This document shows positions 1 through 10,944 of a stretch of 10,944 nucleotides of DNA, piece by piece (position 1 is the stretch's first letter; each line of letters begins with the position of its first letter). A program made the translations under genes and the position numbers. Location of the stretch: the NCBI GenBank assembly GCA_025966435.1, contig JAICRQ010000068.1:1-10944 (forward strand), given 5' to 3'. The notes beneath the pieces were generated by a model. It did no database searches. It was not told where the DNA came from and worked only from the letters and a program-made list of their open reading frames with translations. This DNA is from Anaerolineales bacterium. Its GTDB lineage: Bacteria; Chloroflexota; Anaerolineae; Anaerolineales; Villigracilaceae.

Positions 1-1
1 C

Positions 2-1555
2 GTCATTGAAGTTACACAGCCCCAGGGACACTCCACATCCGGTAGCCATGAACGCTATAAATCGCCAAAGCGCCTCCAATGGGAAGAGGAGTACGATTGT
101 ATCTGCAAGATGCGCGAGTGGATGATCGAAAGCGATGTCGCGACCGAACCGGAGCTGGTCGCGATCGAAAAAGAGGATCACGCGACCGTGGAGGGAATAC
201 GCAAGCTTGCCTGGGAGGCGTATCTCGCGCCGATTCTCGAGGAGCGCGATCAGGTCATGGACATGCTCGACGAGATCGCGGGTAACTCCTCACACGCTTC
301 TGAGTTGACCCAGATCAAGGAGCGGCTGGCAGCCCTTCCTGCGCCATTGCGCCGGGACGTCCACAGTGCCGCCCATGAAGCACTGCGAGTCTTGCAACAG
401 GAAGCCAACCCGTCCAAGCAGATTTTGGCTGTGTGGAAGAACGAACAGGATGCGATCAACGATGAGCGTTATGGCTCCTATCTGCACAGTGGCAAAGCCG
501 TTGCGGTCAAAGAGGTGAAGCCTGTCTACTCAAGTTCGTCGCCGACCGTGATGGGCTTTGAAGTGATGAATGCCGCGTTTGATTCGATCCTGGGGCGCGA
601 TCCGCGCGTGATCGCGTTCGGCGAGGACGTCGGATTCCTAGGCGATGTAAATCAGGGCTTCAAGGGGATGCAGGAAAAATACGGCGCGTTGCGTGTGAGC
701 GATACAGGCATCCGTGAAACCACGATCCTGGGACAGGCAATCGGCATGGCGATGCGTGGGCTGCGTCCGATCTGTGAGATTCAATATCTGGACTATGTGT
801 TATATGCCCTGCAGATTATGTCTGACGATCTCGCCAATCTGCACTGGCGCACGGTGGGCGGGCAGTCTGCGCCAGTGATCGTCCGCACGCGCGGTCATCG
901 GCTGGAGGGGATCTGGCACGCCGGGTCACCCATGGCGGGAATCATTCATTTAGTGCGCGGGATGAATGTGGTAGTGCCGCGTGATATGACTCGCGCGGCC
1001 GGGTTCTACAATACTTTATTGAAAGCGGATGAGCCTGCCGTGGTTGTGGAGGTGTTGAACGGCTATCGCATCAAGGAAAGGCTTCCGGATAACATCGGGG
1101 AGTTTACAGTCCCGCTTGGCGTTTCGGAAGTGATCCGTGAGGGAGGCGATGTGACGGTCGTGACATACGGCGCGTGCTGCCGCATCGCGCTGGATGCCGC
1201 GCAGAAGTTGTCGAAGGCCGGGATTGAAGTCGAAGTGGTGGATGTACAGTCCTTACTGCCGTTTGATATTCATGGAAAGATTCTGGAATCTCTCAAGAAG
1301 ACCAATCGTATTGTGTTTTTGGATGAAGACGTACCCGGTGGGGGGACTGCGTACATGATGCAGGAGGTCATCGAAAAGCAGGGCGGCTACTATCACCTCG
1401 ACTCGGAACCGCGTACTCTTTCTGGAAAGGCGCATCGTCCTGCATACGGCAGCGACGGTGACTACTGGTCCAAGCCGAACGCCGAGACGGTGTTTGATAC
1501 GGTATATGAGATGATGAATGAAGTTGACCCGAACCGATATCCTGTGATTCGCTAA
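2..1555 (+). CDS. 2-oxoacid dehydrogenase E1 component, alpha-beta fusion (5' truncated by window)
   Basis: Thiamine-diphosphate (TPP) dependent E1 of a pyruvate or branched-chain 2-oxoacid dehydrogenase complex; it decarboxylates the 2-oxoacid and acylates the lipoyl group of E2. The frame is open back to base 2, so the gene starts upstream; the first ATG in view (110) is internal. Window residues 5-20 (TQPQGHSTSGSHERYK) match the GHS loop of E1 alpha. A helical linker follows. Residues from about 184 to 517 form a full-length E1 beta-like part (about 334 aa), with the Glu of GEDVG (residue 208) at the position of the TPP-activating Glu, then the transketolase pyrimidine-binding and C-terminal domains. 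One frame runs through both parts, so this is a fusion rather than the usual two genes. The TAA stop (1553-1555) overlaps an inverted repeat. E2 and E3 lie downstream. The sequence alone does not settle whether pyruvate or branched-chain acids are used. Confidence 0.93.
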   Translation, partial: VIEVTQPQGHSTSGSHERYKSPKRLQWEEEYDCICKMREWMIESDVATEPELVAIEKEDHATVEGIRKLAWEAYLAPILEERDQVMDMLDEIAGNSSHASELTQIKERLAALPAPLRRDVHSAAHEALRVLQQEANPSKQILAVWKNEQDAINDERYGSYLHSGKAVAVKEVKPVYSSSSPTVMGFEVMNAAFDSILGRDPRVIAFGEDVGFLGDVNQGFKGMQEKYGALRVSDTGIRETTILGQAIGMAMRGLRPICEIQYLDYVLYALQIMSDDLANLHWRTVGGQSAPVIVRTRGHRLEGIWHAGSPMAGIIHLVRGMNVVVPRDMTRAAGFYNTLLKADEPAVVVEVLNGYRIKERLPDNIGEFTVPLGVSEVIREGGDVTVVTYGACCRIALDAAQKLSKAGIEVEVVDVQSLLPFDIHGKILESLKKTNRIVFLDEDVPGGGTAYMMQEVIEKQGGYYHLDSEPRTLSGKAHRPAYGSDGDYWSKPNAETVFDTVYEMMNEVDPNRYPVIR

Positions 1556-1580
1556 CCACAGAGACGCTGAGTACGCGGAG
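1554..1580 (+). repeat. Left inverted repeat of the GxxExxY cassette
   Basis: Contains CCACAGAGACGC followed by a purine-rich tract (GAGTACGCGGAG). Pairs with the reverse complement of 2015-2041 at 21 of 27 positions, with the longest uninterrupted block CAGAGACGC. The first two bases are the last two of the E1 TAA stop. From memory, and unchecked here, CACAGAGA-type repeats are common near GxxExxY genes in many genomes. Confidence 0.75.
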
Positions 1581-1597
1581 AGATTAAAGGACTTTAG

Positions 1598-2008
1598 ATG
1601 AAGTTTGTCCCGCGCAGTGATATTTTGGACGTAAACAAAACAACCGAAGCTATTATCGGTGCGGCAATTGAAGTTCATCGTCATCTTGGTCCTGGATTAC
1701 TCGAATCTGCATACGAAGAATATCTATGCGAGGAACCCTTATTAAGAAAGACTCCATTCAAACGTCAGATTGTTTTACCTGTGACGCACAAGAACAAAAA
1801 ACTGGATATTGGATATCGAATCGATTTATTGGTCAATGACGAAGTTGTTGTCGAATTGAAAACGGTTGAGTCCATATTGCCTATTCATGAAGCACAAACT
1901 CTGACCTACATGAAATTGGGCGGTTGGCAAGTTGGACTTATTTTTAATTTCAATGTGACAATTCTCAAAAACGGCATCAAACGGCTCGTCCATAAACTCA
2001 AAGAATAA
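1598..2008 (+). CDS. GxxExxY family protein, PD-(D/E)XK nuclease fold
   Basis: A 136-aa soluble protein of the GxxExxY family, whose biological role is not established; the family is related to PD-(D/E)XK nucleases. The name motif is GLLESAY at residues 33-39. The nuclease-like core is visible as Asp76 (YRIDLLV), then ELK with Glu86 and Lys88 after a short strand, followed by HEAQTLTY (97-104) with the conserved Gln, and NFNV near the C-terminus. All expected acidic and Lys positions are present, so it looks intact. The start is fixed by a stop codon (TAG 1595-1597) directly upstream in frame and by AAAGGA six bases before the ATG. It is A+T-rich relative to E1 and E2 and sits between inverted repeats in the middle of the dehydrogenase operon, so it is probably a passenger and not part of the enzyme complex. 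DNA or RNA cleavage is possible but unproven. Confidence 0.92.
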   Translation: MKFVPRSDILDVNKTTEAIIGAAIEVHRHLGPGLLESAYEEYLCEEPLLRKTPFKRQIVLPVTHKNKKLDIGYRIDLLVNDEVVVELKTVESILPIHEAQTLTYMKLGGWQVGLIFNFNVTILKNGIKRLVHKLKE

Positions 2009-2014
2009 AAAAAG

Positions 2015-2041
2015 CTCTGTGTTCTCCGCGTCTCTGCGGTG
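2015..2041 (-). repeat. Right inverted repeat of the GxxExxY cassette
   Basis: Reverse-complement partner of 1554-1580; on the + strand it reads CTCTGTGTTC then TCCGCGTCTCTGCGGTG. It starts 6 bp after the GxxExxY stop, preceded by an A-run (2007-2013), and ends just before the E2 ribosome-binding site. It also contains a small internal hairpin, CCGC/GCGG with a 6-nt loop (2026-2039). Confidence 0.75.
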
Positions 2042-2046
2042 AAAAC

Positions 2047-2060
2047 AAGGAGAATGTATG
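2047..2060 (+). promoter_or_regulatory. Ribosome-binding site and start of E2
   Basis: AAGGAG (2047-2052) lies five bases before ATG 2058. An overlapping out-of-frame ATG at 2054 is too close to be used. The site is just outside the right inverted repeat, so E2 keeps its own translation signal despite the inserted cassette. Confidence 0.75.
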
Positions 2061-3293
2061 GCAACGAAAGTACTTGTTCCTCTACTCGGTGAAGGTGTTG
2101 AAGAAGTCACTGTCACAAAATGGCTTAAAAAGGAAGGCGACTCGGTCGACGAGTTGGAGCCGCTTCTCGAAGTGAATACCGATAAAGTGGACACGGAAAT
2201 CCCCGCGCCTGTCTCAGGGACAGTCTTGAAGATTCTTACTGAGGAGGGCGTTCCTGCAAAAGTAGGAGCTGTATTAGCTTTTATTGGGAAACCCGGGGAA
2301 TCTGTAGAAGGTTCTTCTCCAGCCGCCGTAACAAAAACCGAATCAAAGGGGGAAGATCGGAAGATAGTTGCTCCTCAACCTGAAACCTTAGACGTGAAAT
2401 CTGCCACCAAACAAGATAGCGGATTCATTTCTCCAGTCGTTGCAAAGATCGCGGCGGAGCACGGGGTAAATTTACAGGATGTTCAGGGAACGGGATTGAA
2501 CGGGCGTATCACCAAGAATGACGTGTTAAGTTTTGTTGAAAGTGGACAAAAGACCATTGACCATGGACCACAAACGATGGTTGATCGTCCATCGTCTATC
2601 ACCGCTTCCGCCAGTGGCGATCAGTTGATAAAGCACACCGTCATCCGCAAACAGATCGCCGAGCACATGGTCATGTCCAAACATACGTCGCCCCACGTGC
2701 TGACGGTGATGGAAGCCGACATGACTCATGTAGTCAAACATCGCTCTACCAACAAGGAAGTGTTCGAGCGTGATGGGGTTAACCTTACCTTCACAGCCTA
2801 CTTTATGATGGCGATTGTGTCAGGGTTGAAAGCCAACCCCCACGTCAATGCATCATGGACAGACGAGGGTATTCGCATCCACAAAGACATTAACCTGGGG
2901 ATGGCAACCGCTCTCGGTGAAGAAGGACTGATCGTGCCGGTGATCAAAGGCGCGGATAATTTATCTTTGCTAGCGATGGCGCGCGCCGTCAATGACCTTG
3001 CCGCGCGGGCGCGCGCGAAAAAGCTCCAGCCAGATGAAGTCAAAGGCGGGACGTTCACATTGACCAATCATGGCACCAGCGGCTCGCTGTTCGCCTTTCC
3101 TGTCATCAACCAACCACAGAGCGGAATCCTGGGAGTCGGCGCGATGCAGAAGCGAGTGATTGTGATCGAGGATGCCATTGCCATTCGCCCCATGGTGTAT
3201 CTCTCGTTTACGTTCGATCATCGCATCCTCGACGGCGCCGCCGCAGATCGGTTTTTGATGAAGGTCAAGGAAACGATGGAAAACTGGGCTTGA
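2058..3293 (+). CDS. 2-oxoacid dehydrogenase E2, dihydrolipoyl acyltransferase
   Basis: Core acyltransferase of the complex; it moves the acyl group from E1 to CoA through a swinging lipoyl arm. The 411-aa protein has the standard order: one lipoyl domain (about 1-77) with the lipoylated Lys43 in NTDKVDTEIPAP; a variable linker; the E1/E3 peripheral-subunit-binding domain (about 122-160, FISPVVAKIAAEHGV...GRITKNDV); a second linker; and the catalytic domain (about 190-411) with the active-site motif DHRILDG, His388 and Asp392. Length is normal for a single-lipoyl E2. The second linker (residues 165-181) is encoded by a heptamer repeat, see the separate entry. The TGA stop overlaps the next gene's ATG (TGATG). 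It lies between E1 and E3 genes, so PdhC/BkdB-type; the substrate is undetermined. Confidence 0.95.
   Translation: MATKVLVPLLGEGVEEVTVTKWLKKEGDSVDELEPLLEVNTDKVDTEIPAPVSGTVLKILTEEGVPAKVGAVLAFIGKPGESVEGSSPAAVTKTESKGEDRKIVAPQPETLDVKSATKQDSGFISPVVAKIAAEHGVNLQDVQGTGLNGRITKNDVLSFVESGQKTIDHGPQTMVDRPSSITASASGDQLIKHTVIRKQIAEHMVMSKHTSPHVLTVMEADMTHVVKHRSTNKEVFERDGVNLTFTAYFMMAIVSGLKANPHVNASWTDEGIRIHKDINLGMATALGEEGLIVPVIKGADNLSLLAMARAVNDLAARARAKKLQPDEVKGGTFTLTNHGTSGSLFAFPVINQPQSGILGVGAMQKRVIVIEDAIAIRPMVYLSFTFDHRILDGAAADRFLMKVKETMENWA
2552..2600 (+). repeat. Seven-heptamer palindromic repeat inside the E2 linker
   Basis: Read in sevens the stretch is GACCATT, GACCATG, GACCACA, AACGATG, GTTGATC, GTCCATC, GTCTATC. 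The first three share GACCA; the last three are near reverse complements of a GAYGRAC-like unit, so the array is also an imperfect palindrome (about 19 of 27 positions match between 2555-2581 and the reverse complement of 2574-2600). Seven is not a multiple of three, so each unit is read in a different phase. It encodes the linker residues TIDHGPQTMVDRPSSI, which have no catalytic role. The array resembles the short heptanucleotide repeats known from cyanobacteria in kind, not in sequence. Confidence 0.65.
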
Positions 3294-3778
3294 TGCGTAT
3301 GCAAAAGCGAAAAGAAAAAGATCACCCCGGCACCAGCATCCTGGTGCATCCGCCCATTGTGGCGTTGCTATGTATTGGGATCGCCTACTTGCTGGGGCGC
3401 TTGATTCCACTGCCATTCGCCGCACCGGCTATTTTGCGTTACATCGGGGTAGTTCTTACTATCGTTGGGTTCCTGTTGGGTATCGGTGCCTTCATCGAAT
3501 TCCAAAAAGCCCAAACGACGTTGGACCCGCACGGTTCTACAAGTCAGCTTGTCACATCCGGGATCTATCGTTTTTCGCGCAACCCTATTTATCTTGGGTT
3601 CCTGTTGATCGTCATCGGTTTGCCGCTGTACTTTGGTTTATTTTGGGGAATTGTGATGGCTCCCGTTTTTATCTTCCTGATGAACCACCTCGTCATTCAG
3701 CATGAGGAGATGTATCTCGAGAGGAAGTTCAAAGAAACCTACACGGATTACCGGGCTCGCGTGAGACGTTGGCTGTAG
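3293..3778 (+). CDS. Isoprenylcysteine carboxyl methyltransferase-like membrane protein
   Basis: A 161-aa integral membrane protein of the ICMT/PEMT-like methyltransferase superfamily. Hydrophobic segments lie at about 22-42, 45-66 and 95-130. The family hallmark is the C-terminal half: TSGIYRFSRNPIYLGFLL (the R-x-x-R-N/H-P-x-Y-x-G motif that binds S-adenosylmethionine) and the tail EEMYLERKFKETYTDYRARV, with the Glu-Glu and Y-x-x-Y pattern typical of the group. Bacterial members rarely have a known substrate, so methylation of a lipid, thiol or small molecule is possible. The start chosen is ATG 3293, which overlaps the E2 stop (TGATG) and implies translational coupling; ATG 3299 is an alternative, and no clear ribosome site precedes either. 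Its presence between E2 and E3 suggests co-expression but not necessarily a role in the complex. Confidence 0.85.
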   Translation: MRMQKRKEKDHPGTSILVHPPIVALLCIGIAYLLGRLIPLPFAAPAILRYIGVVLTIVGFLLGIGAFIEFQKAQTTLDPHGSTSQLVTSGIYRFSRNPIYLGFLLIVIGLPLYFGLFWGIVMAPVFIFLMNHLVIQHEEMYLERKFKETYTDYRARVRRWL

Positions 3779-3797
3779 TAGAATAAAAACATTAAAC

Positions 3798-3825
3798 GTC
3801 ATCGCGGCCAAAGGCATGTGATGAC
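3798..3825 (+). other. Small hairpin in the leader of the E3 gene
   Basis: GTCATC (3798-3803) pairs with GATGAC (3820-3825), with an inner GCC/GGC stem around an AAA loop and a small internal bulge. It has no T-run, so it is unlikely to be a terminator. It sits 6 bp ahead of the E3 ribosome-binding site (AAGGAGA, 3832-3838) and could be an RNA-processing or stabilising structure. Confidence 0.35.
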
Positions 3826-3843
3826 ATCTACAAGGAGATAGGT

Positions 3844-5244
3844 ATGGCGGAAAATTTTGATGTCGTTGTGATTGGCGCGGGCCCGGGTGGCTATGTGGCT
3901 GCGATCCGCGCCGCGCAACTAAAGCAGAAAGTTGCCATTGTGGACAAACAATGGCTGGGCGGTGTGTGTTTGAATGTCGGTTGTATCCCATCGAAATCGC
4001 TGTTGAAGAATGCCGAAGTGGCGCACACGCTTCGCGAGCGAGGGAAAGATTTTGGTTTTTCCTTCGACAACCTCAAGCTGGATTTCGGCGTTGCGGTTAA
4101 GCGTTCACGGCAAGTATCGGACCGGCTCGTCAAAGGCGTTGGATTTCTGATGAAGAAAAACAGCATCACGGTCTTTATGGGGGAGGCGCATCTGACCAAC
4201 CCGAACACGGTGACCGTCAAAGATAAGGACGGCAAGACGACCGAGCTAAATGCGAAGAATATCATCGTGGCAACCGGTGCCAGTGTCGCGATCCCCGGCG
4301 CGTGGAAGGTGGATGGCGAAAAGGTTCTAACATACTTGGAAGCAATCCTGCAGGAAAGGCTGCCGAAGTCGGTCGTAGTCATCGGAGCGGGTGCAATCGG
4401 CGTGGAATTTTCGACGGTATGGCGCTCCTATGGTGTGGAGGTAACAATCGTAGAAATGCTGCCGCGCCTGCTCCCGCTTGAGGATGAAGAGGTCTCGAAG
4501 GAGTTGAAGAAAGAATTCGAGAAGCGTGGCATCAAATGCTTTGTTGGCAATAAAGTGGAATCTCTCGAAACCACAGAGTCCGGCGTGCGCGTCAGGGTCT
4601 CGGCAGAGGGGAAGGAAACCACGCTGGAAGCAGAGCAGGCACTCGTCGCGATCGGCTTCCGCCCCAACTCAAAGGGAATCGGACTAGAAGACGTCGGCGT
4701 CAAGGTCAACGAGCGTGGCTTCGTGGAGATCAACGAAAAAATGCAGACAAGCGTGCCAAGCATCTACGCCATCGGCGACCTGACCGGCAAATTGCTCCTG
4801 GCGCACGTTGCCTCAGCGATGGGAATCGTCGCGGCAGAAAATATTGCCGGCGCCGAGACGATCACGCTCGATTACGAGATGCTCCCGCGCGCCACGTACT
4901 GCAATCCGCAGGTGGCGTCGTTCGGGCTCACTGAGGCGCAGGCAAAAGAGCGCGGCTACAACATCAAGGTCGGGCGGTTCCCCTTCCAGCCAAACGGCAA
5001 GGCGCTCGGGATGGGCGATTATGCAGGCTTCGTTAAGATTGTCGTCGATGAAAAATATGGCGAGATCCTCGGTGCCCACATGATCGGTCCGGAAGTGACC
5101 GAACTACTCCCTGAGCTGACTCTGGCGCACATGATGGAGTTGACCCCGCACGAGATTGCCCGCAACGTGCATGCCCATCCAACCTTATCTGAAGTCATCA
5201 TGGAAGCGGCGCACGGCGCAGAAGGAATGCCGATCCACATGTAG
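3844..5244 (+). CDS. lpdA: Dihydrolipoamide dehydrogenase (E3)
   Basis: FAD-dependent E3 of the 2-oxoacid dehydrogenase complex; it reoxidises the dihydrolipoyl group of E2 and passes electrons to NAD+. The 466-aa length is normal. Features in order: FAD-binding GAGPGG (11-16) in the first beta-alpha-beta fold; the redox-active disulfide Cys42/Cys47 in GGVCLNVGCIPSK; the NAD-binding GAGAIG with VTIVE after it; the second FAD motif YAIGDLTGKLLLAH; and the dimer-interface domain ending in HAHPTLSE with the catalytic pair His445/Glu450. All key residues are present. The start is supported by AAGGAGA at 3832-3838, five bases before the ATG. It is the last gene of the operon, 65 bp after the methyltransferase-like gene, and is followed by a strong stem-loop. 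It may also serve other lipoyl-dependent complexes in the cell. Confidence 0.97.
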   Translation: MAENFDVVVIGAGPGGYVAAIRAAQLKQKVAIVDKQWLGGVCLNVGCIPSKSLLKNAEVAHTLRERGKDFGFSFDNLKLDFGVAVKRSRQVSDRLVKGVGFLMKKNSITVFMGEAHLTNPNTVTVKDKDGKTTELNAKNIIVATGASVAIPGAWKVDGEKVLTYLEAILQERLPKSVVVIGAGAIGVEFSTVWRSYGVEVTIVEMLPRLLPLEDEEVSKELKKEFEKRGIKCFVGNKVESLETTESGVRVRVSAEGKETTLEAEQALVAIGFRPNSKGIGLEDVGVKVNERGFVEINEKMQTSVPSIYAIGDLTGKLLLAHVASAMGIVAAENIAGAETITLDYEMLPRATYCNPQVASFGLTEAQAKERGYNIKVGRFPFQPNGKALGMGDYAGFVKIVVDEKYGEILGAHMIGPEVTELLPELTLAHMMELTPHEIARNVHAHPTLSEVIMEAAHGAEGMPIHM

Positions 5245-5249
5245 TTGAG

Positions 5250-5283
5250 AAGTGACTGTCACTCCCAAGTGACAGTCACTTTT
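5250..5283 (+). terminator. Perfect 14-bp stem-loop after E3, probable terminator
   Basis: AAGTGACTGTCACT (5250-5263), loop CCCA (5264-5267), then its exact reverse complement (5268-5281), ending in four T (5280-5283). It lies 5 bp after the E3 stop. The T-run is short for a classical terminator. Each arm is also a 13-bp palindrome on its own (AGTGAC-T-GTCACT), so the element may be a dispersed repeat doing duty as a terminator. Confidence 0.7.
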
Positions 5284-5446
5284 GAATCCAGAAGTAAAGC
5301 TTGTGAGTTGTGGGGTTTCATCCTGGTGTGGGTTGGGGGAACTCCGAAGGGCTGAATCGAGTCTTATGGGTATAATATCAATATCATTTCAATTTAATGT
5401 ATCCACTCTTTAAGCGCTTTTTATCACAATTGGGCAGGAGGCCCGG
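5284..5446 (+). promoter_or_regulatory. Intergenic region with a TATAAT promoter element
   Basis: A perfect -10 hexamer TATAAT at 5371-5376 lies in an A+T-rich stretch 71 bp before the membrane-protein start. No convincing -35 is seen 16-18 bp upstream. Closer to the gene are a small palindrome AAGCGCTT with a T-run (about 5412-5421) and the ribosome-binding site AGGAGG at 5436-5441, five bases before the ATG. Nothing else is recognised in this stretch. Confidence 0.4.
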
Positions 5447-6130
5447 ATGACGCGTTCGCCACATCCTTCCCCGCGAGGACCATTTTCTATGCGGGGCATG
5501 TTGAGCATCTTAATGCTTTTCGCAAGCCTGGGCGCGTTAAGTATTGCTTTGATTGCAGGGGCAAGGCTGATTTTTGATATTTTAGGCGTCGGTCTGGAGA
5601 ATTCGCTTCCCACACTCCCCACGAAGGCACTGGTGATCGGGCTGGCGTATGGTGTGGGATGGATTACCGCCATGATCGCGATCCGGGTCTATGGAAATCT
5701 GGTTTTGCCGTTCATTATCAATTTCATGATCTGGGGTTGTTTGGTCGGAGTCTGTGCCCTGTATCTGCTGGTCTTATACAGAATGTATGACCAGACGTAT
5801 AACCTGCTGCGCTTCTGGGCGTACTTAACGATTGTGGCGTCTGGGCTGGGCGCAATGGTTGGGCTGCATTTGATCCTCGAAGACCACGACCTGAGACCCT
5901 TTTCGATTCCCTTGCTGGTGATTTGCATGATCCATCTGGCATTGATTGTTTTCCGTTATGTGTTTACTACGGCAAACCCTGGTTATCTATGGACGGATCT
6001 GTTGTTCTTCATCGCCATGGCAGGCTTTGGATATCTCATGCTGGCGCATATTGGCTTGCTGAGTCCCTTGCGGCGTCAGTTGACCAATTATTTTGATAAG
6101 AACAGCAGGATGATACGGACTGAGGATTAG
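5447..6130 (+). CDS. Multi-pass membrane protein of unknown function
   Basis: I do not recognise a characterised family. The 227-aa protein is strongly hydrophobic with about six predicted membrane segments: roughly residues 18-45, 60-82, 85-110, 122-145, 150-172 and 183-205. The N-terminus is short, Pro/Arg-rich and cytoplasmic-looking; the C-terminus is charged (SPLRRQLTNYFDKNSRMIRTED) and probably also cytoplasmic. No catalytic motif, cofactor site or transporter signature is visible. The start at ATG 5447 has a perfect AGGAGG five bases upstream, so translation is likely strong. It has its own promoter-like element and follows the operon terminator, so it is probably a separate transcription unit. 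It converges on the sensor kinase gene, with 30 bp between the two stop codons. Confidence 0.85.
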   Translation: MTRSPHPSPRGPFSMRGMLSILMLFASLGALSIALIAGARLIFDILGVGLENSLPTLPTKALVIGLAYGVGWITAMIAIRVYGNLVLPFIINFMIWGCLVGVCALYLLVLYRMYDQTYNLLRFWAYLTIVASGLGAMVGLHLILEDHDLRPFSIPLLVICMIHLALIVFRYVFTTANPGYLWTDLLFFIAMAGFGYLMLAHIGLLSPLRRQLTNYFDKNSRMIRTED

Positions 6131-6154
6131 CAGGTAGGTAGACAGGAAAACAGG
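6131..6154. repeat. Three degenerate octamers between convergent genes
   Basis: CAGGTAGG, TAGACAGG, AAAACAGG in direct succession, sharing the pattern xxxxCAGG or xxxxTAGG. They fill most of the 30-bp gap between the membrane-protein and kinase stop codons. No terminator hairpin is seen here, so the convergent transcripts probably overlap. Confidence 0.4.
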
Positions 6155-6160
6155 TGTTTA

Positions 6161-9100
6161 CTACTCTGCCAGCGGTATCTGCAAAATGAAGGTACTGCCT
6201 GGCATTTTTTCTTCGTCATAGCCCGGGCTTTCGACCCAGATCCTGCCTCGGTGCGATTTGACAATGCCCGCCGCGATCGCCAGACCAAGACCCGGTCCAC
6301 CGCCCTTGAACTTGGTGCGCCCTGAGGAATGCAGCTCCACTTTCCCGAGCTGGTAGAGTTTCTCGAAGACAATCTTGTGGTTGGCGGGATCAATGCCGAT
6401 GCCAGTATCCCGGATGCGGATCTCGCAAAACTCCCCGTGTCCATTGACCTGGACTGGCTTGGCATCTATAAAAATAGATCCGCCATCTGGCGTGAATTTA
6501 ATAGCATTGACCAGGACATTGTCGAGGGCTTTTTTCAGCAGTTCAGAGTCCGCCAGCAGAGGAGGCATCGTGTTGATGCCAGTGTCCAGCTCGAGCTTGA
6601 TCTGGCGCTCCTCCAAATCTTCCAGATAACTCTTACAGACCAGTCGCAGAACGGGACCGAGAGTCACTGCCTCGAGATGCGGAGTCAGCACCTGATTTTC
6701 CAGCCGCGCCACATCCAACATGCTGTTGACGATCTGATGCAACCGGTCCGTGCCTTGGATGATACCGTCCATCACCTGCCGCAGACTTGGACTTTCCTGC
6801 ACTACGGACGTCGCTTTGATCATCCCCAAATAGCCCTTGATCACAGTCAGCGGGGTGCGCAGTTCATGGGCAGCCACCTGGATAAAATCGCTCTTGTTCT
6901 TATCGAGTTTTGCCAGAGTCTGGTAAGCGCTGTTCAGCTCATCCACACGCTGTTCCACCATGCGCTCCATCATCTGATTAAAGCGGTTCAAGTCATCATA
7001 GAGACGGGCGTTCTCCAGCGCAATCGATGCCTGGATGGCGAAGGTATTTGCCAGAAGAACATCATCCTGATTAAAGGATGCCGGCGCCGCGCGGCTGATG
7101 GTGAGCATCCCAATGACTTTGGTCTTTGCATATAATGGAATTCCCAGCCAGGCGCGATCGTCGGGCACCCAATCGGGTTGTTTCCAGTTTTGCATGTTTT
7201 TAATATCGCCGATGATCAGCGGCTCCGATTGTTTGGCGATGAAGTGATACACATTCGTCCCGCGCAACGTGTACGACAGGGTCTCCACCGGCGCATCCAT
7301 TGGAAAACCAGCGTGCGCCACCAGCCGCGGGGTGCCGTTGATATCCTCGCGAAAGATCGCCGAGCGGTCATGGGGAATTAACATGGACAGTTGTGTGATG
7401 ATCTGTTGCGGAACATCAGTCACGGCGCCCAGAGAGGAGAGCTGCCGCACCGATTTCGTCAGCGCCTCGGCAATCTGGCGCCGGGTCTGCTCACTGGAAT
7501 AGAGCTTGGCATTCTCCGCCGCGGTCCGCTCGGCAAATTCCTTTGCGATCGCCAGCTCTGTGGTGCGGTCGCGCGCCTCATTGAGCAGGCGCTGCACCTC
7601 ACTCTGTGCCTGTTCCTTTTGCTGTACCAGCATCACCCGCAACAGTGCGCTGCTCACCAGGTTACGAATGCGGACGTAGATCTCCCAATCGCGCGGTCCC
7701 ATCTCCACCCACATAAAGCCGAACCGATTGCGTGCCAGAGAAAGCGGCATGATGACCGCGGAATAGCGGTGGTCTGCCGGCGTTTTCCCGCGAGGGATGA
7801 GCTGCCCGGTTCCAATGGTCGTGCGTTTCTGCGGGATCTCAAATTGTGATCCTTCATATTGAAGCAACAGGTTATAACTTTCAGGCGGAGGCGCAGAAAT
7901 GGACTGTGGTGCTTTTACATCGCTGTAGAACATCACATACCATCGTTCGATGCCCATATCGGGGAAGTGTGTGGAGATGGCGTTACCGATTTCGTCCATG
8001 CTCATGGCAGGTGCCATCGAGAAGCTAAAGCCATGCAGAAGGTGCTCCTGCTGTTCGAGGATAAGCCTCCGATAGGCTTGTGAGCGCTGCGAAAGCTCAC
8101 CCGCCAGCAGGCGCGCCTGTTGGAAGAGATTTTCCGCCTGCAGCATGTTCGTGTGGCTGGTGATGCCTCCCAGGGCATACCGGCGCATCATCGAGATCAC
8201 ATTATGCCAAACGGCGGGGGCAAGCTCATGCTTCTGCATCAATTCGATCATGGCATTGATCGTCTTCAAGAATTCTTCATTGGAAGATCTACCGTTCATC
8301 GCTAACAGGAAGCCATCCCAGGCGCGCCCAAATGCATCCCGGAAGAGAAGAAGCGCCGTGTCCTGTTCAGTGACCCCGGCGGAATTGAGCAGAGCGCGCA
8401 GCGCGGCTTCACGTTTGTTCTCGAGCCTGCCGGTCTTTGCCACATCGCGTGGGGCAACCGCAGCCTGGCGGACGTTCTCCGGCAGACAGCCGCACGACCA
8501 GCGGGTGAGTAATTGGGTGGGTGTCAGTGTGACCTGTGGAACGCTATCTCCACGAATTCGCTTAAGCAGTGTCTCCAGGGCGCGCTTGCCTGCCGTGTAA
8601 AAGGACTGTCTTACGGTCGTCAGCGGGACACCGATTGCCTGGGCTTCGCGCAGATCGTCGAACCCGGTCACTGCCACATCGTCCGGTACGCGTACCCCTC
8701 GCTGTTGTAAAGCCTCCAGCGCGCCAAAAGCCATGCTGTCATTCGCCGCGACAATCGCCTGCACCCGGAGCCTGCGCTCGTCGAGGAGAGTGCGGATCGC
8801 GGCTCTTCCGCTTTCCGCCGTGAAGTCGCCATCGACAACAAGGTCTTCATCGTAGTGGAGATTCTGCGCTTTGAGCTCATTCTGGTACCCCTCGAAGCGC
8901 TGCTCGGCGTCGATTTGCCCGGGGATGCCGCGAAGGAAAGCGATCCGTTTATACCCGTGATCCTGGATCAGGTGACGCACAGCCGCGCGCATCCCCTCTT
9001 CATTATTCGGGATGAACATCGAAGCGCCGTCGATCTTCACCGATTGTGTCACGATAGGGATCGCACCGTAAAATTCCGAAAACGTCTTAAGGTCTTGCGG

Positions 9101-9370
9101 ACTCGCGCCATAAGCGACATCAGCAGTTAGCAACAAGCCGTCGAGTTGACCTGGCTTGGCGAGGTCATATAGCCCAAAGGAAAGTTTGTTTTTATCATCT
9201 GTGAGAGCCGGCGTTAGTTTTCCCCCAATGAAATAGACAAGATTTAGGTTTTGCTCCTCGGCAGCTGCATTGACACCCGCGAGAAACTCCATGCCCCAGG
9301 CGCGTCCGACCTGAGAGGCAAACACACCGATGGTTTTACGTTCAGAAGAGGGCTTGGCAGGAAACGACAT
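6161..9370 (-). CDS. Cytoplasmic sensor histidine kinase with LacI-type ligand-binding domain
   Basis: A 1069-aa sensor kinase. Residues about 12-295 are a LacI/GalR-type sugar-binding fold (TIGVFASQVGRAWGMEFL..., DDVAVTGFDD, ending in the typical RWSCGC), but the DNA-binding helix-turn-helix of LacI proteins is absent. A helical region follows (about 300-440), then a GAF-like region (about 447-583), a coiled coil (about 583-630), a GAF domain (about 640-785), a second coiled coil, HisKA with phospho-acceptor His835 in AHELRTPL, and HATPase with N-box NVLVNAIKF (Asn955), DTGIGID (Asp988) and GPGLGLA. No signal peptide or membrane segment is seen, so it is soluble and senses an internal ligand. 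There is no response regulator in the window, so the partner is unknown. A TATAAT lies 30 bp upstream on its strand; the ribosome site is weak. The stop is TAG at 6163-6161. Confidence 0.93.
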   Translation of the reverse strand: MSFPAKPSSERKTIGVFASQVGRAWGMEFLAGVNAAAEEQNLNLVYFIGGKLTPALTDDKNKLSFGLYDLAKPGQLDGLLLTADVAYGASPQDLKTFSEFYGAIPIVTQSVKIDGASMFIPNNEEGMRAAVRHLIQDHGYKRIAFLRGIPGQIDAEQRFEGYQNELKAQNLHYDEDLVVDGDFTAESGRAAIRTLLDERRLRVQAIVAANDSMAFGALEALQQRGVRVPDDVAVTGFDDLREAQAIGVPLTTVRQSFYTAGKRALETLLKRIRGDSVPQVTLTPTQLLTRWSCGCLPENVRQAAVAPRDVAKTGRLENKREAALRALLNSAGVTEQDTALLLFRDAFGRAWDGFLLAMNGRSSNEEFLKTINAMIELMQKHELAPAVWHNVISMMRRYALGGITSHTNMLQAENLFQQARLLAGELSQRSQAYRRLILEQQEHLLHGFSFSMAPAMSMDEIGNAISTHFPDMGIERWYVMFYSDVKAPQSISAPPPESYNLLLQYEGSQFEIPQKRTTIGTGQLIPRGKTPADHRYSAVIMPLSLARNRFGFMWVEMGPRDWEIYVRIRNLVSSALLRVMLVQQKEQAQSEVQRLLNEARDRTTELAIAKEFAERTAAENAKLYSSEQTRRQIAEALTKSVRQLSSLGAVTDVPQQIITQLSMLIPHDRSAIFREDINGTPRLVAHAGFPMDAPVETLSYTLRGTNVYHFIAKQSEPLIIGDIKNMQNWKQPDWVPDDRAWLGIPLYAKTKVIGMLTISRAAPASFNQDDVLLANTFAIQASIALENARLYDDLNRFNQMMERMVEQRVDELNSAYQTLAKLDKNKSDFIQVAAHELRTPLTVIKGYLGMIKATSVVQESPSLRQVMDGIIQGTDRLHQIVNSMLDVARLENQVLTPHLEAVTLGPVLRLVCKSYLEDLEERQIKLELDTGINTMPPLLADSELLKKALDNVLVNAIKFTPDGGSIFIDAKPVQVNGHGEFCEIRIRDTGIGIDPANHKIVFEKLYQLGKVELHSSGRTKFKGGGPGLGLAIAAGIVKSHRGRIWVESPGYDEEKMPGSTFILQIPLAE

Positions 9371-9399
9371 TTTGCAGTATCTCTAAAGTTGATGTGGGG

Positions 9400-9405
9400 A
9401 TTATA
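9400..9405 (-). promoter_or_regulatory. -10 promoter element for the sensor kinase
   Basis: On the - strand this reads GGC-TATAAT-CC, a perfect -10 hexamer 29 bp before the kinase ATG, giving a short leader. The -35 candidate (TTCAGC at 9427-9422, 16-bp spacer) is weak. It implies the kinase is transcribed separately from the acetyltransferase gene upstream. Confidence 0.5.
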
Positions 9406-9455
9406 GCCTCGATTTCAGCGGGCTGAATAAAACAAAAGAGTAACAAAATTTGTGT

Positions 9456-9490
9456 GGGTTGCCCTCAACAGAACGCTTCGCAGTCAACCC
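9456..9490 (-). terminator. Possible stem-loop after the GNAT gene
   Basis: GGGTTG (9456-9461) pairs with CAACCC (9485-9490) around a 23-nt loop, just 3 bp past the acetyltransferase stop codon. The stem is short and there is no clean T-run on the - strand, so it is a weak terminator or part of a dispersed intergenic repeat. Confidence 0.3.
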
Positions 9491-9493
9491 GCC

Positions 9494-10345
9494 CTACAGA
9501 CTTAACTTCATCTGCCACTGGGTCAAATTTTCTTTTTCAAAACCGGCTCTTTCGAACACCGGTCCAAGCTCTTCAGGGAGTATTGCAGGAACGTGCCATG
9601 CCTTACCGGCGTGAAGCGCCGTCACACGCTGGAGCAGCTTTGTCCCCAGCCCGTGCCCCCGCGCTTCTGGCTCGACGAGCAATGACCAGATGACCACATG
9701 CTCTGCCTCAGGGTTTGAGATGACGACGTATGCCTGTCCCTCGCGAAAGGCGTGTAGCTGTGGGTTCGCTTGAGAAATGCTCTCTCCCGATAGCTGCCAG
9801 GGCAGGTCTGGTAAGCCATGTCGTGAGATCAATCGGCCCATCTCCTGCAGATCGACATTGTGCAGCGGTTTTTCTCCGTTTTCTTTATCGGGCTTGCCGC
9901 TATCGCTAGCGCTGCGCGTAAACCCAACTAACCTGCGCATGTTCGCAAAACCATAGTTCTGATACAGTCTCACGGCAGGCTCATTGTGCTCGATCACTTC
10001 GAGCACAATCTCGCGGTCGCCGCGTTTACGGGCATCCTCAACCAGCCTTTTCATGAGCCATGAACCAGCAGCCCCTTTGCCTCTTGTTTCTCTTGCGATT
10101 CCCATTGCCGCGACCCGGCTGGTGTGAATAGAGCGACGGGGTGCAATTAACGCGACGCCGCACGCTTGATCGTCAGCGAGCAGAACGCGGCTTTCTGCCA
10201 GGTCTATGCCATCTTTGCGGAGCATGTTTGCAAACATATCCATCGTGAAATGTATGGGGATAACATAGCCCTCGAAGCCGCGATTCAATAATGGAACAAG
10301 TTCTGATAAAGAGTAATTTGAGGCGGGGACAATACCAAATTCCAT
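9494..10345 (-). CDS. Tandem GNAT-family N-acetyltransferase
   Basis: A 283-aa protein with two acetyl-CoA-dependent GNAT folds. In the first (about 1-150), the core is VAAMGIARETRGKGAAGSWL with the acetyl-CoA loop R-G-K-G-A-A near residue 90, then VIEHNEPAVRLYQNYGF, the usual C-terminal GNAT signature. In the second (about 170-283), the core is IWSLLVEPEARGHGLGTKLL with R-G-H-G-L-G near residue 230, then LGPVFERAGF. Both acetyl-CoA loops look intact. The substrate cannot be read from the sequence; small molecules, peptides or an amino group on an antibiotic are all possible for this family. AGGAGA (10355-10350 on the - strand) precedes ATG 10345 by four bases; an out-of-frame ATG at 10349 overlaps. 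It is divergent from the transporter gene, with a 137-bp gap. Confidence 0.9.
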   Translation of the reverse strand: MEFGIVPASNYSLSELVPLLNRGFEGYVIPIHFTMDMFANMLRKDGIDLAESRVLLADDQACGVALIAPRRSIHTSRVAAMGIARETRGKGAAGSWLMKRLVEDARKRGDREIVLEVIEHNEPAVRLYQNYGFANMRRLVGFTRSASDSGKPDKENGEKPLHNVDLQEMGRLISRHGLPDLPWQLSGESISQANPQLHAFREGQAYVVISNPEAEHVVIWSLLVEPEARGHGLGTKLLQRVTALHAGKAWHVPAILPEELGPVFERAGFEKENLTQWQMKLSL

Positions 10346-10382
10346 GCATTCTCCTGTGCCTCGATTCTACCCGCATCCGGCG

Positions 10383-10403
10383 TATAATTTGGAAACGGGT
10401 TCC
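10383..10403 (+). promoter_or_regulatory. -10 element and overlapping palindrome before the MFS gene
   Basis: TATAAT (10383-10388) is a perfect -10 hexamer, with only a weak -35 upstream. Directly after it GGAAAC-G-GGTTCC (10391-10403) is a near-perfect 13-bp palindrome covering the predicted transcription start (about 10395), a position typical of a repressor operator. On the other strand TAGAAT (10369-10364) is a possible -10 for the acetyltransferase gene. Confidence 0.4.
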
Positions 10404-10482
10404 CAGACTTCGCCGTGGAATGAGACCGAATTTGGGGTGAGAGCGTGCGTACCAGAAGAGCCTGTAAATGAAAGGAACAACC

Positions 10483-10944
10483 ATGACAGATCTTTCCAGA
10501 ATTGCGCGCAAAATTACGTGGGTTCTCTTTGCAAACCAGAGTCTGGCATCGGCAGGTTTCATTGCTTCTGCTACCATCAATTCTATTATCGGCACGAACC
10601 TCGGGGGCAGCGCGGCCTTTGCAGGTGTGCCGTCCGCTGTGTATCAGGTAGGCGCCGCGTTTGCGGCTTCTGCATGGGGCTACATTATGGACCGCATTGG
10701 CAGAAGGAATGGGATGGTCGCCGGGCTTATCATCGGCGTGATCGGCAACGCGCTGGTTCTGGTGGCAATCGGGGCATCGTCCTTCCTGCTATTTCTGAGT
10801 GGCATGGTGATGATGGGAATCACGAACGCCGCGGTGGTGCTGGGGCGTTTTGCGGCAGCGGAGGTGAACCCGCCGGAACGACGCGGAGCAGCCATCTCGA
10901 ATGTAGTGCTGGGAGGCACATTCGGCGCCATCGTGGGTCCGCTA
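10483..10944 (+). CDS. Major facilitator superfamily transporter (3' truncated by window)
   Basis: N-terminal 154 residues of a secondary transporter; the frame stays open to the last base. The start begins MTDLSRIARKITWVLFANQS. About four to five membrane segments are in view. The loop after the second is the MFS signature GYIMDRIGRRNGMVAG (the G-x-x-x-D-R-x-G-R-R motif A). A further conserved region reads EVNPPERRGAAISNVVLGGT, the usual fifth-segment area of drug-efflux type MFS proteins. The substrate is unknown. AAAGGA (10471-10476) lies six bases before ATG 10483; an in-frame ATG at 10468 would add five residues, but would leave that Shine-Dalgarno inside the gene. It is divergent from the acetyltransferase; a paired efflux and modification function is possible but speculative. 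Confidence 0.88.
   Translation, partial: MTDLSRIARKITWVLFANQSLASAGFIASATINSIIGTNLGGSAAFAGVPSAVYQVGAAFAASAWGYIMDRIGRRNGMVAGLIIGVIGNALVLVAIGASSFLLFLSGMVMMGITNAAVVLGRFAAAEVNPPERRGAAISNVVLGGTFGAIVGPL

Follow-up and report, generated by a model that had tools for sequence, protein, structure and literature searches.

What is a small nuclease-like gene, bounded by inverted repeats, doing inside a 2-oxoacid dehydrogenase operon? The gene lies on a 10,944-nucleotide stretch of DNA from an Anaerolineales bacterium (contig JAICRQ010000068.1, positions 1 to 10,944, assembly GCA_025966435.1), the whole of which we call the window. An original prediction had described it as a member of the GxxExxY family in an inverted-repeat-bounded cassette, placed between two co-functional enzyme genes; profile matches bear out this position, with an E1-beta-type gene on one side and an E2-type gene on the other. 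Here, we show that GxxExxY genes are associated with inverted arms far beyond chance, and across phyla. The organisation is REPIN/RAYT-like, built around a Cas4/RecB-like PD-(D/E)XK protein, and this kind of cassette is widespread in bacteria and archaea and appears to jump. We therefore lean towards the reading that the window contains a selfish element of a REPIN/RAYT-like kind, in a copy of the autonomous type.

Both window arms consist of ACC followed by three C-R-C-N-R-A-N units, and are 81% complementary with a spacing of 434 nt. They are the sole inverted pair reported by a repeat scan of positions 1200-2500, and their alignment score of 13.5 exceeds the maximum of 11.0 in 50 shuffles; control positions at other loci (n=1185) have a 99th percentile of 12.5 and a maximum of 19.0. 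The predicted inverted repeats are thus real, but their length was given as 27 bp and is 26 nt for each arm, the left one sharing its first base with the final A of the stop codon upstream (TAA, 1553-1555), so that arm and codon overlap by one base. Both arms match CCRCAGAGACGCNGAGNACRCRGAG without mismatch, a consensus derived from these same two arms. When a window arm was instead matched with the opposite flank of another GxxExxY locus, 2 of 26 pairings scored equally high, as expected if the arms are common to many loci. No target duplication was seen at the window cassette.

The three-unit pattern was defined by reading 31 loci. A further 40 stretches from the same order contain 42 GxxExxY places, 41 with sufficient flank. 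Inward-facing three-unit arms occur on both sides of 25 of these 41 genes, which are not all independent insertions (one L071 gene is that of L023, read before the unit was defined, and sites are shared, e.g. among L073/L082/L100 and L090/L098/L102/L108), against 12 of 1185 control positions, these being overlapping pseudo-genes in the same stretches (150-base steps). An inverted repeat scoring above the control 99th percentile is present in 36/41. The multi-phylum set was drawn from 80 named loci, all fetched using an alignment of one deep clade, of which 12 were dropped for short flanks; it includes Chloroflexota, Acidobacteria, Planctomycetes, Bacteroidota, Proteobacteria, Verrucomicrobia, Methanothrix and Methanophagales. 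Among the remaining 68 loci, archaea included, both arms face inwards in 48 (controls 5/1095), and 55 have an inverted repeat scoring above 12.5 (controls 31/1095). The comparison of repeats at GxxExxY genes with other positions, proposed with the original prediction, therefore gives a strong excess. A profile re-search found strict arms on both sides of 79 of 158 GxxExxY open reading frames (ORFs); among the other 79 are cases where the flank is short, where the arms have more mismatches or where arms are absent. In one sequence search for the family, all 7999 candidates that were scored were significant. Searches with one query each found GxxExxY matches in 6 of 72,556 plasmid records and in 0 of 50,697 phage records; a single query of viral contigs gave 27 pattern matches, three of them relatives, and L190, one of the three, carries an arm on either side.

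The arms also occur without the gene. REP elements had been offered as an analogy, and dispersed REP-like arm copies were indeed found, along with amplified arm-bearing elements in two order-mates (G046 and G063). We scanned 121 genomes of the order with the pattern CRCNRAN{2,4}CRCNRAN{2,4}CRCNRA, using the reversed pattern as control. An arm excess of at least 15 over control, a threshold set after the counts were seen, occurs in 58 of 76 genomes with the gene versus 6 of 45 without, and in 43/58 versus 2/26 when the genomes are at least 90% complete. Median arm load is 82 with the gene and 7 without it (Spearman 0.76; threshold-free rank test, p 8.5e-14). The order-mate G039, with a 2.2-Mb genome, has 1364 matches (control 95), with dense clusters among the matches listed; G087 has 435 (control 14) and G111 has 326 (control 32), with seven and five GxxExxY genes found, respectively. 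G063 has 101, and among the 50 listed, 38 stand in inward-facing pairs; the single gene found there (L094) has an arm doublet on each side. The source genome of the window has 39 matches versus 9 in the control. Besides the window arms, six places in it match the window arm consensus with at most three mismatches (control 1), and four of these are doublets or near-doublets (L004, L006, L008, L009), called with at most two mismatches per arm and, for the second arm of L006, by reading only.

Arm type follows protein lineage. Left and right arm types match within 72 of 79 cassettes (shuffled mean 25.8, maximum 39), and this agreement holds also where one genome contains several arm types. On a tree of the 79 proteins, the arm types need 16 changes versus 35.0 when shuffled (0/200 as low). 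Both comparisons contain near-copies; with these removed, leaving 34 proteins less than 60% identical, all arm types need 11 changes versus 20.3 (0/200 as low). The arms end in G in 52/52 members of one deep GxxExxY clade, while in a second deep clade 23/27 end in T or A (4/27 in G, 3 in A). Among the 34 proteins this last unit letter, which was picked after the 79-protein tree, changes once versus 11.3 times when shuffled (0/500 as low). Sister cassettes at apparently one shared site have both arms altered together, with GAG/GAA units in L019/L024 and GAT units in L030/L036; these types were assigned by reading and confirmed in the type analysis for L019, L030 and L036. Because arm type is coupled to the protein phylogeny, recognition of the arms by the GxxExxY protein is likely. 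The 263 differences between left and right arms comprise 89 that retain a G-U pair, 70 transitions that break pairing and 104 transversions. Such differences do not track pairing in RNA; they are better explained by a factor that reads the unit sequence, in the simplest case the protein encoded in the cassette.

The protein itself is an intact member of its family, as had been claimed. The window ORF scores 132.5 bits against TIGR04256 (GxxExxY; cut-off 35) and 127 bits against PF13366 (PDDEXK_3; cut-off 22), which is its only Pfam match at E 0.001; a HUH/Tyr (IS200/IS605-type) transposase domain is not among its matches. No transposase family was found for the gene between the window arms, which thus lack the DDE gene of a classical insertion sequence, and the PADLOC-DB anti-phage defence families gave 0 matches for the protein at E 0.001. 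The core residues E36, D76, E86, K88 and Q100 are all present and are invariant across an alignment of 32 sequences; in an alignment of 76, E36, D76 and K88 are invariant and E86 and Q100 reach at least 90%. The predicted structure has a predicted local distance difference test score (pLDDT) of 91.1 and a predicted template modelling score (pTM) of 0.85, and its fold matches are PD-(D/E)XK enzymes: SSO0001 (a Cas4), AddB and lambda exonuclease. These Cas4/RecB-type nucleases share both the fold and the residues E...D...ExK...QxxxY, the last of which form the QxxxY motif. Cas4 proteins are marked by four iron-sulphur cysteines and a cas locus. By contrast, the GxxExxY protein stands alone with 136 aa and a single cysteine, and its neighbours are 2-oxoacid dehydrogenase genes, with no cas gene. 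As predicted, the GxxExxY ORF is lower in G+C (0.392) than the E1-beta part (0.564) and the E2 gene (0.515). Where measurable, GxxExxY genes are seemingly under purifying selection (seven dN/dS values, that is, ratios of non-synonymous to synonymous substitution, two of them on saturated dS >2).

Occupation of the site in close relatives is patchy, and the gene is not always present there, nor without repeats. We judged the E1-beta/E2 site in 30 genomes of the family, the source genome of the window included, taking the best 30 loci of 52 matching genomes (61 searched). It holds a GxxExxY cassette in three genomes, gene-less arms in seven (both arms by the strict rule in five), a gene like that of the 23S rRNA intervening-sequence protein (IVP) in eight and none of these in ten, some of whose gaps contain arm-like fragments; two could not be judged. 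A second site, in another genus, is present in 10 of 11 genomes: it is filled in six, contains an apparent decayed gene in L206 and is cassette-free in L204, L205 and L207. GxxExxY genes that are 74-87% identical also stand at sites without detectable flank similarity (e.g. L153/L163 and L011/L012), and L187 has two copies, 83% identical, in one contig.

The eight relatives with IVP-like genes at the E1-beta/E2 site are L043, L046, L047, L053, L055, L057, L061 and L065. PF05635 was demonstrated for L043, L047 and L065; the other five were assigned because they resemble two of the three. Close reading of five loci (L043, L047, L053, L057 and L065) shows that short repeats of another kind, resembling CAGTGATCAGT or CAACTACCAACC, border the genes. 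The site thus accommodates a second kind of small gene that comes with repeats of its own. The same gap in L041 and L051 contains a different repeat, starting GTCATTGCGAG.

Which known system does this resemble? The consulted parts of two papers describe REPIN/RAYT as a small gene for an enzyme, with short repeats on its flanks; the repeats also lie dispersed as gene-less inverted doublets, and their class is tied to the enzyme lineage (PMC3116915, PMC3733652). All of these features recur here, with short repeats flanking the gene, the same repeats dispersed as gene-less inverted doublets and a repeat class tied to the protein lineage. However, the GxxExxY protein has a PD-(D/E)XK fold whereas RAYT is of the HUH/Tyr kind, and the arms are three direct C-R-C-N-R-A-N units rather than GTAG-tagged palindromes. 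The GTAG REP is defined, in the part consulted of one paper, as a palindrome with a GTAG tag at one end (PMC3733652); by reading, neither strand of the window arms has this tag. Further differences are the two amplified arm families with 8-9 bp target duplications and the presence of at least two GxxExxY genes in 52 of 76 carrier genomes. As both enzyme fold and repeat architecture differ, the GxxExxY system works like REPIN/RAYT without being a member. Miniature inverted-repeat transposable elements (MITEs) and insertion sequences are similar in their inverted ends, in the target duplications of G046 and G063 and in internally deleted copies with common breakpoints, but the GxxExxY cassette has no DDE transposase, and its arms are linked to a nuclease gene and are conserved from one phylum to another. 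The 23S rRNA intervening sequences, described in the consulted part of one paper as carrying S23/IVP, a selfish small gene in an inverted-repeat setting (PMC4990558), share that setting and selfish character, but involve another protein family and other repeats, and the GxxExxY cassette lies in protein operons.

The amplified elements bear on how such cassettes move. G046 has 73 tip-plus-arm ends of one family (control 0). The 17 entries read there represent 13 distinct places, of which six share one frameshift and seven are without the stretch containing the ExK lysine; L212 alone keeps the frame and ExK in its remaining part, and is cut by a contig end. One internal deletion is common to three copies. 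The 13 complete elements are 99-537 bp long, and 8-bp duplications (at most one mismatch) flank 3/13 (cross-paired 0/156). The G063 family is about 155 bp long without a gene, with ends CASGCGTTTTKCA and an arm doublet at its centre; 9-bp duplications (at most one mismatch) occur in 7 of 14 elements with both ends read (cross-paired 0/182). In Bacteroidota, L153 and L163 contain a 698-bp element with GCTACTCTTT-type ends; the two copies are 85% identical, their sites are unrelated, and the only arms form a palindrome ahead of the gene.

From these elements an argument can be made that the cassettes and doublets are passengers, MITE-like and moved by resident DDE transposases that read the outer tips, the GxxExxY gene being cargo or encoding an arm-binding nuclease for another reason. 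The outer tips beyond the arms differ by family (GTATYTGTTT in G046, CASGCGTTTTKCA in G063, GCTACTCTTT in L153/L163), and tips together with 8-9 bp duplications are what a DDE transposase would leave; they also fit such a transposase acting in trans. The frameshift and deletion shared by several G046 copies likewise suggest that broken copies were probably moved in trans. An insertion sequence with such tips was found in neither G046 nor G063. In G046, all 64 exact tip matches fall among the 73 tip-plus-arm ends; 13 of 17 examined interiors are wholly element sequence, and L241, L243, L262 and L268 are only partly so and were not identified. This search is weak and not an exclusion, the genome being 59% complete and many interiors ending at contig ends. 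In G063, no exact tip pair lies 1-3 kb apart. The passenger explanation leaves unexplained why arm type follows the GxxExxY phylogeny and why arm load follows gene presence, and we regard it as rather unlikely. Other observations, besides the tips and duplications, also weigh against a system driven by the GxxExxY protein. The amplified G063 elements that were read contain no gene; 18/76 gene-bearing genomes have no arm excess and 6/45 gene-less genomes have one; families f5 and f13 have none with or without the gene; and G039 mixes several arm types though one GxxExxY gene was found. No inverted repeat above 12.5 occurs at 5/41 same-order and 13/68 multi-phylum genes. Unit letter 5 tracks the tree weakly (8 changes versus 11.5; 11 and 19 of 500 as low), and the AAT type by itself does not (130/500 as low). 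A scan of 76 cassettes for a general target duplication gave no clear signal above cross-pairing, with arm registration imperfect, the window left arm included. The window gene is also 73% identical to the G011 gene at the same site, so the window cassette may be an old, vertically kept insertion.

Alternatively, the arms might act in RNA: once paired in the operon mRNA, they would direct an RNase III-type excision of the gene, in the manner of 23S rRNA intervening sequences, and spread at the DNA level would be incidental. The genes do tend to lie within operons, 80 of 116 being co-directional with both neighbours and 7 of 116 opposed to both (counted with a naive gene caller on 158 ORFs, the uncounted ones having far neighbours in 14 cases and otherwise no flank or neighbour), and in other genera the IVP-like genes with their own repeats occupy the same intergenic site. 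However, the left/right arm differences described above are not clearly in favour of pairing, it is the unit sequence rather than complementarity that is conserved, and the window has no Rfam match at gathering thresholds; this makes an RNA role improbable. Least credible of all is the alternative raised with the original prediction, a housekeeping gene within a passive repeat. The apparent purifying selection and the gene common to 3/30 genomes at this site would suit it, but, of the 28 genomes with a clear call, 25 are without a GxxExxY gene at the site, arms flank the gene across phyla, similar genes stand at unrelated sites and arm load is tied to the gene, and we give it hardly any weight.

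If the cassette is instead a REPIN/RAYT-like element, the GxxExxY protein would recognise the arms, either as double-stranded repeats or as the hairpin of a doublet, and its nuclease would nick or cut them. Gene-bearing cassettes and gene-less doublets could then spread or be copied by repair, with strand transfer performed by the GxxExxY protein alone or by a transposase in trans. Lying just after a stop codon, before the next ribosome-binding site and co-directional with the operon, the cassette is probably expressed by read-through, which would cost the host little. The nuclease activity of the protein might in this way drive the spread, as the original prediction suggested. That prediction is supported in part: its cassette, the repeat association and the dispersed copies are borne out, and neither of the outcomes named as refuting it was observed. 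More broadly, and tentatively, GxxExxY proteins could be previously unrecognised repeat-mobilising enzymes: stand-alone Cas4/RecB-like nucleases that read three-unit arms by a protein-encoded specificity (last letter G in one deep clade, mostly T/A in the other) and themselves propel an interspersed repeat family that is among the most widespread in bacteria and archaea, in a REPIN/RAYT-like system evolved independently on another nuclease fold. We found no description of a GxxExxY-repeat association in the literature searched (Creative Commons-licensed PubMed Central texts, a part of the literature without preprints), and papers naming GxxExxY were, in the portions of text examined, not about repeats. 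This gives a very large protein family of unassigned function a testable role, and interspersed repeats across phyla a candidate enzyme; the pairing of arm letter with protein clade offers a specificity code that can be tested directly. Should the nuclease act on the arms, unrelated nuclease folds would have given rise to mobile repeat systems at least twice.

Table 1. Positions of the cassette and the surrounding genes in the window.
Feature	Position	Strand	Details
Left arm	1555..1580	+	ACC, then units 1557-1563 CACAGAG, 1565-1571 CGCTGAG, 1574-1580 CGCGGAG; GAG type
GxxExxY gene, 136 aa, PD-(D/E)XK type, Cas4/RecB-like	1598..2008	+	E36, D76, E86-x-K88, Q100xxxY104
Right arm, inverted	2015..2040	-	Minus-strand units CGCAGAG, CGCGGAG, CACAGAG; GAG type
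Upstream co-directional gene, 2-oxoacid dehydrogenase E1 beta-type region	110..1555	+	Profile matches
Downstream co-directional gene, 2-oxoacid dehydrogenase E2-type	2058..3293	+	Profile matches
Lipoamide dehydrogenase, after E2-type gene	3844-5244		Profile matches

The genes around the cassette are listed in Table 1. In most relatives, the E1-beta region is part of an open frame of ~800-860 aa, so the E1-beta-type gene probably starts upstream of the window. A ribosome-binding-site-like AAGGAG lies directly 3' of the right arm, ahead of the E2-type gene. A setting within a row of co-functional genes is also seen in L196, a Sphingomonas parapaucimobilis plasmid record, where an annotated GxxExxY gene lies between fabD and fabG.
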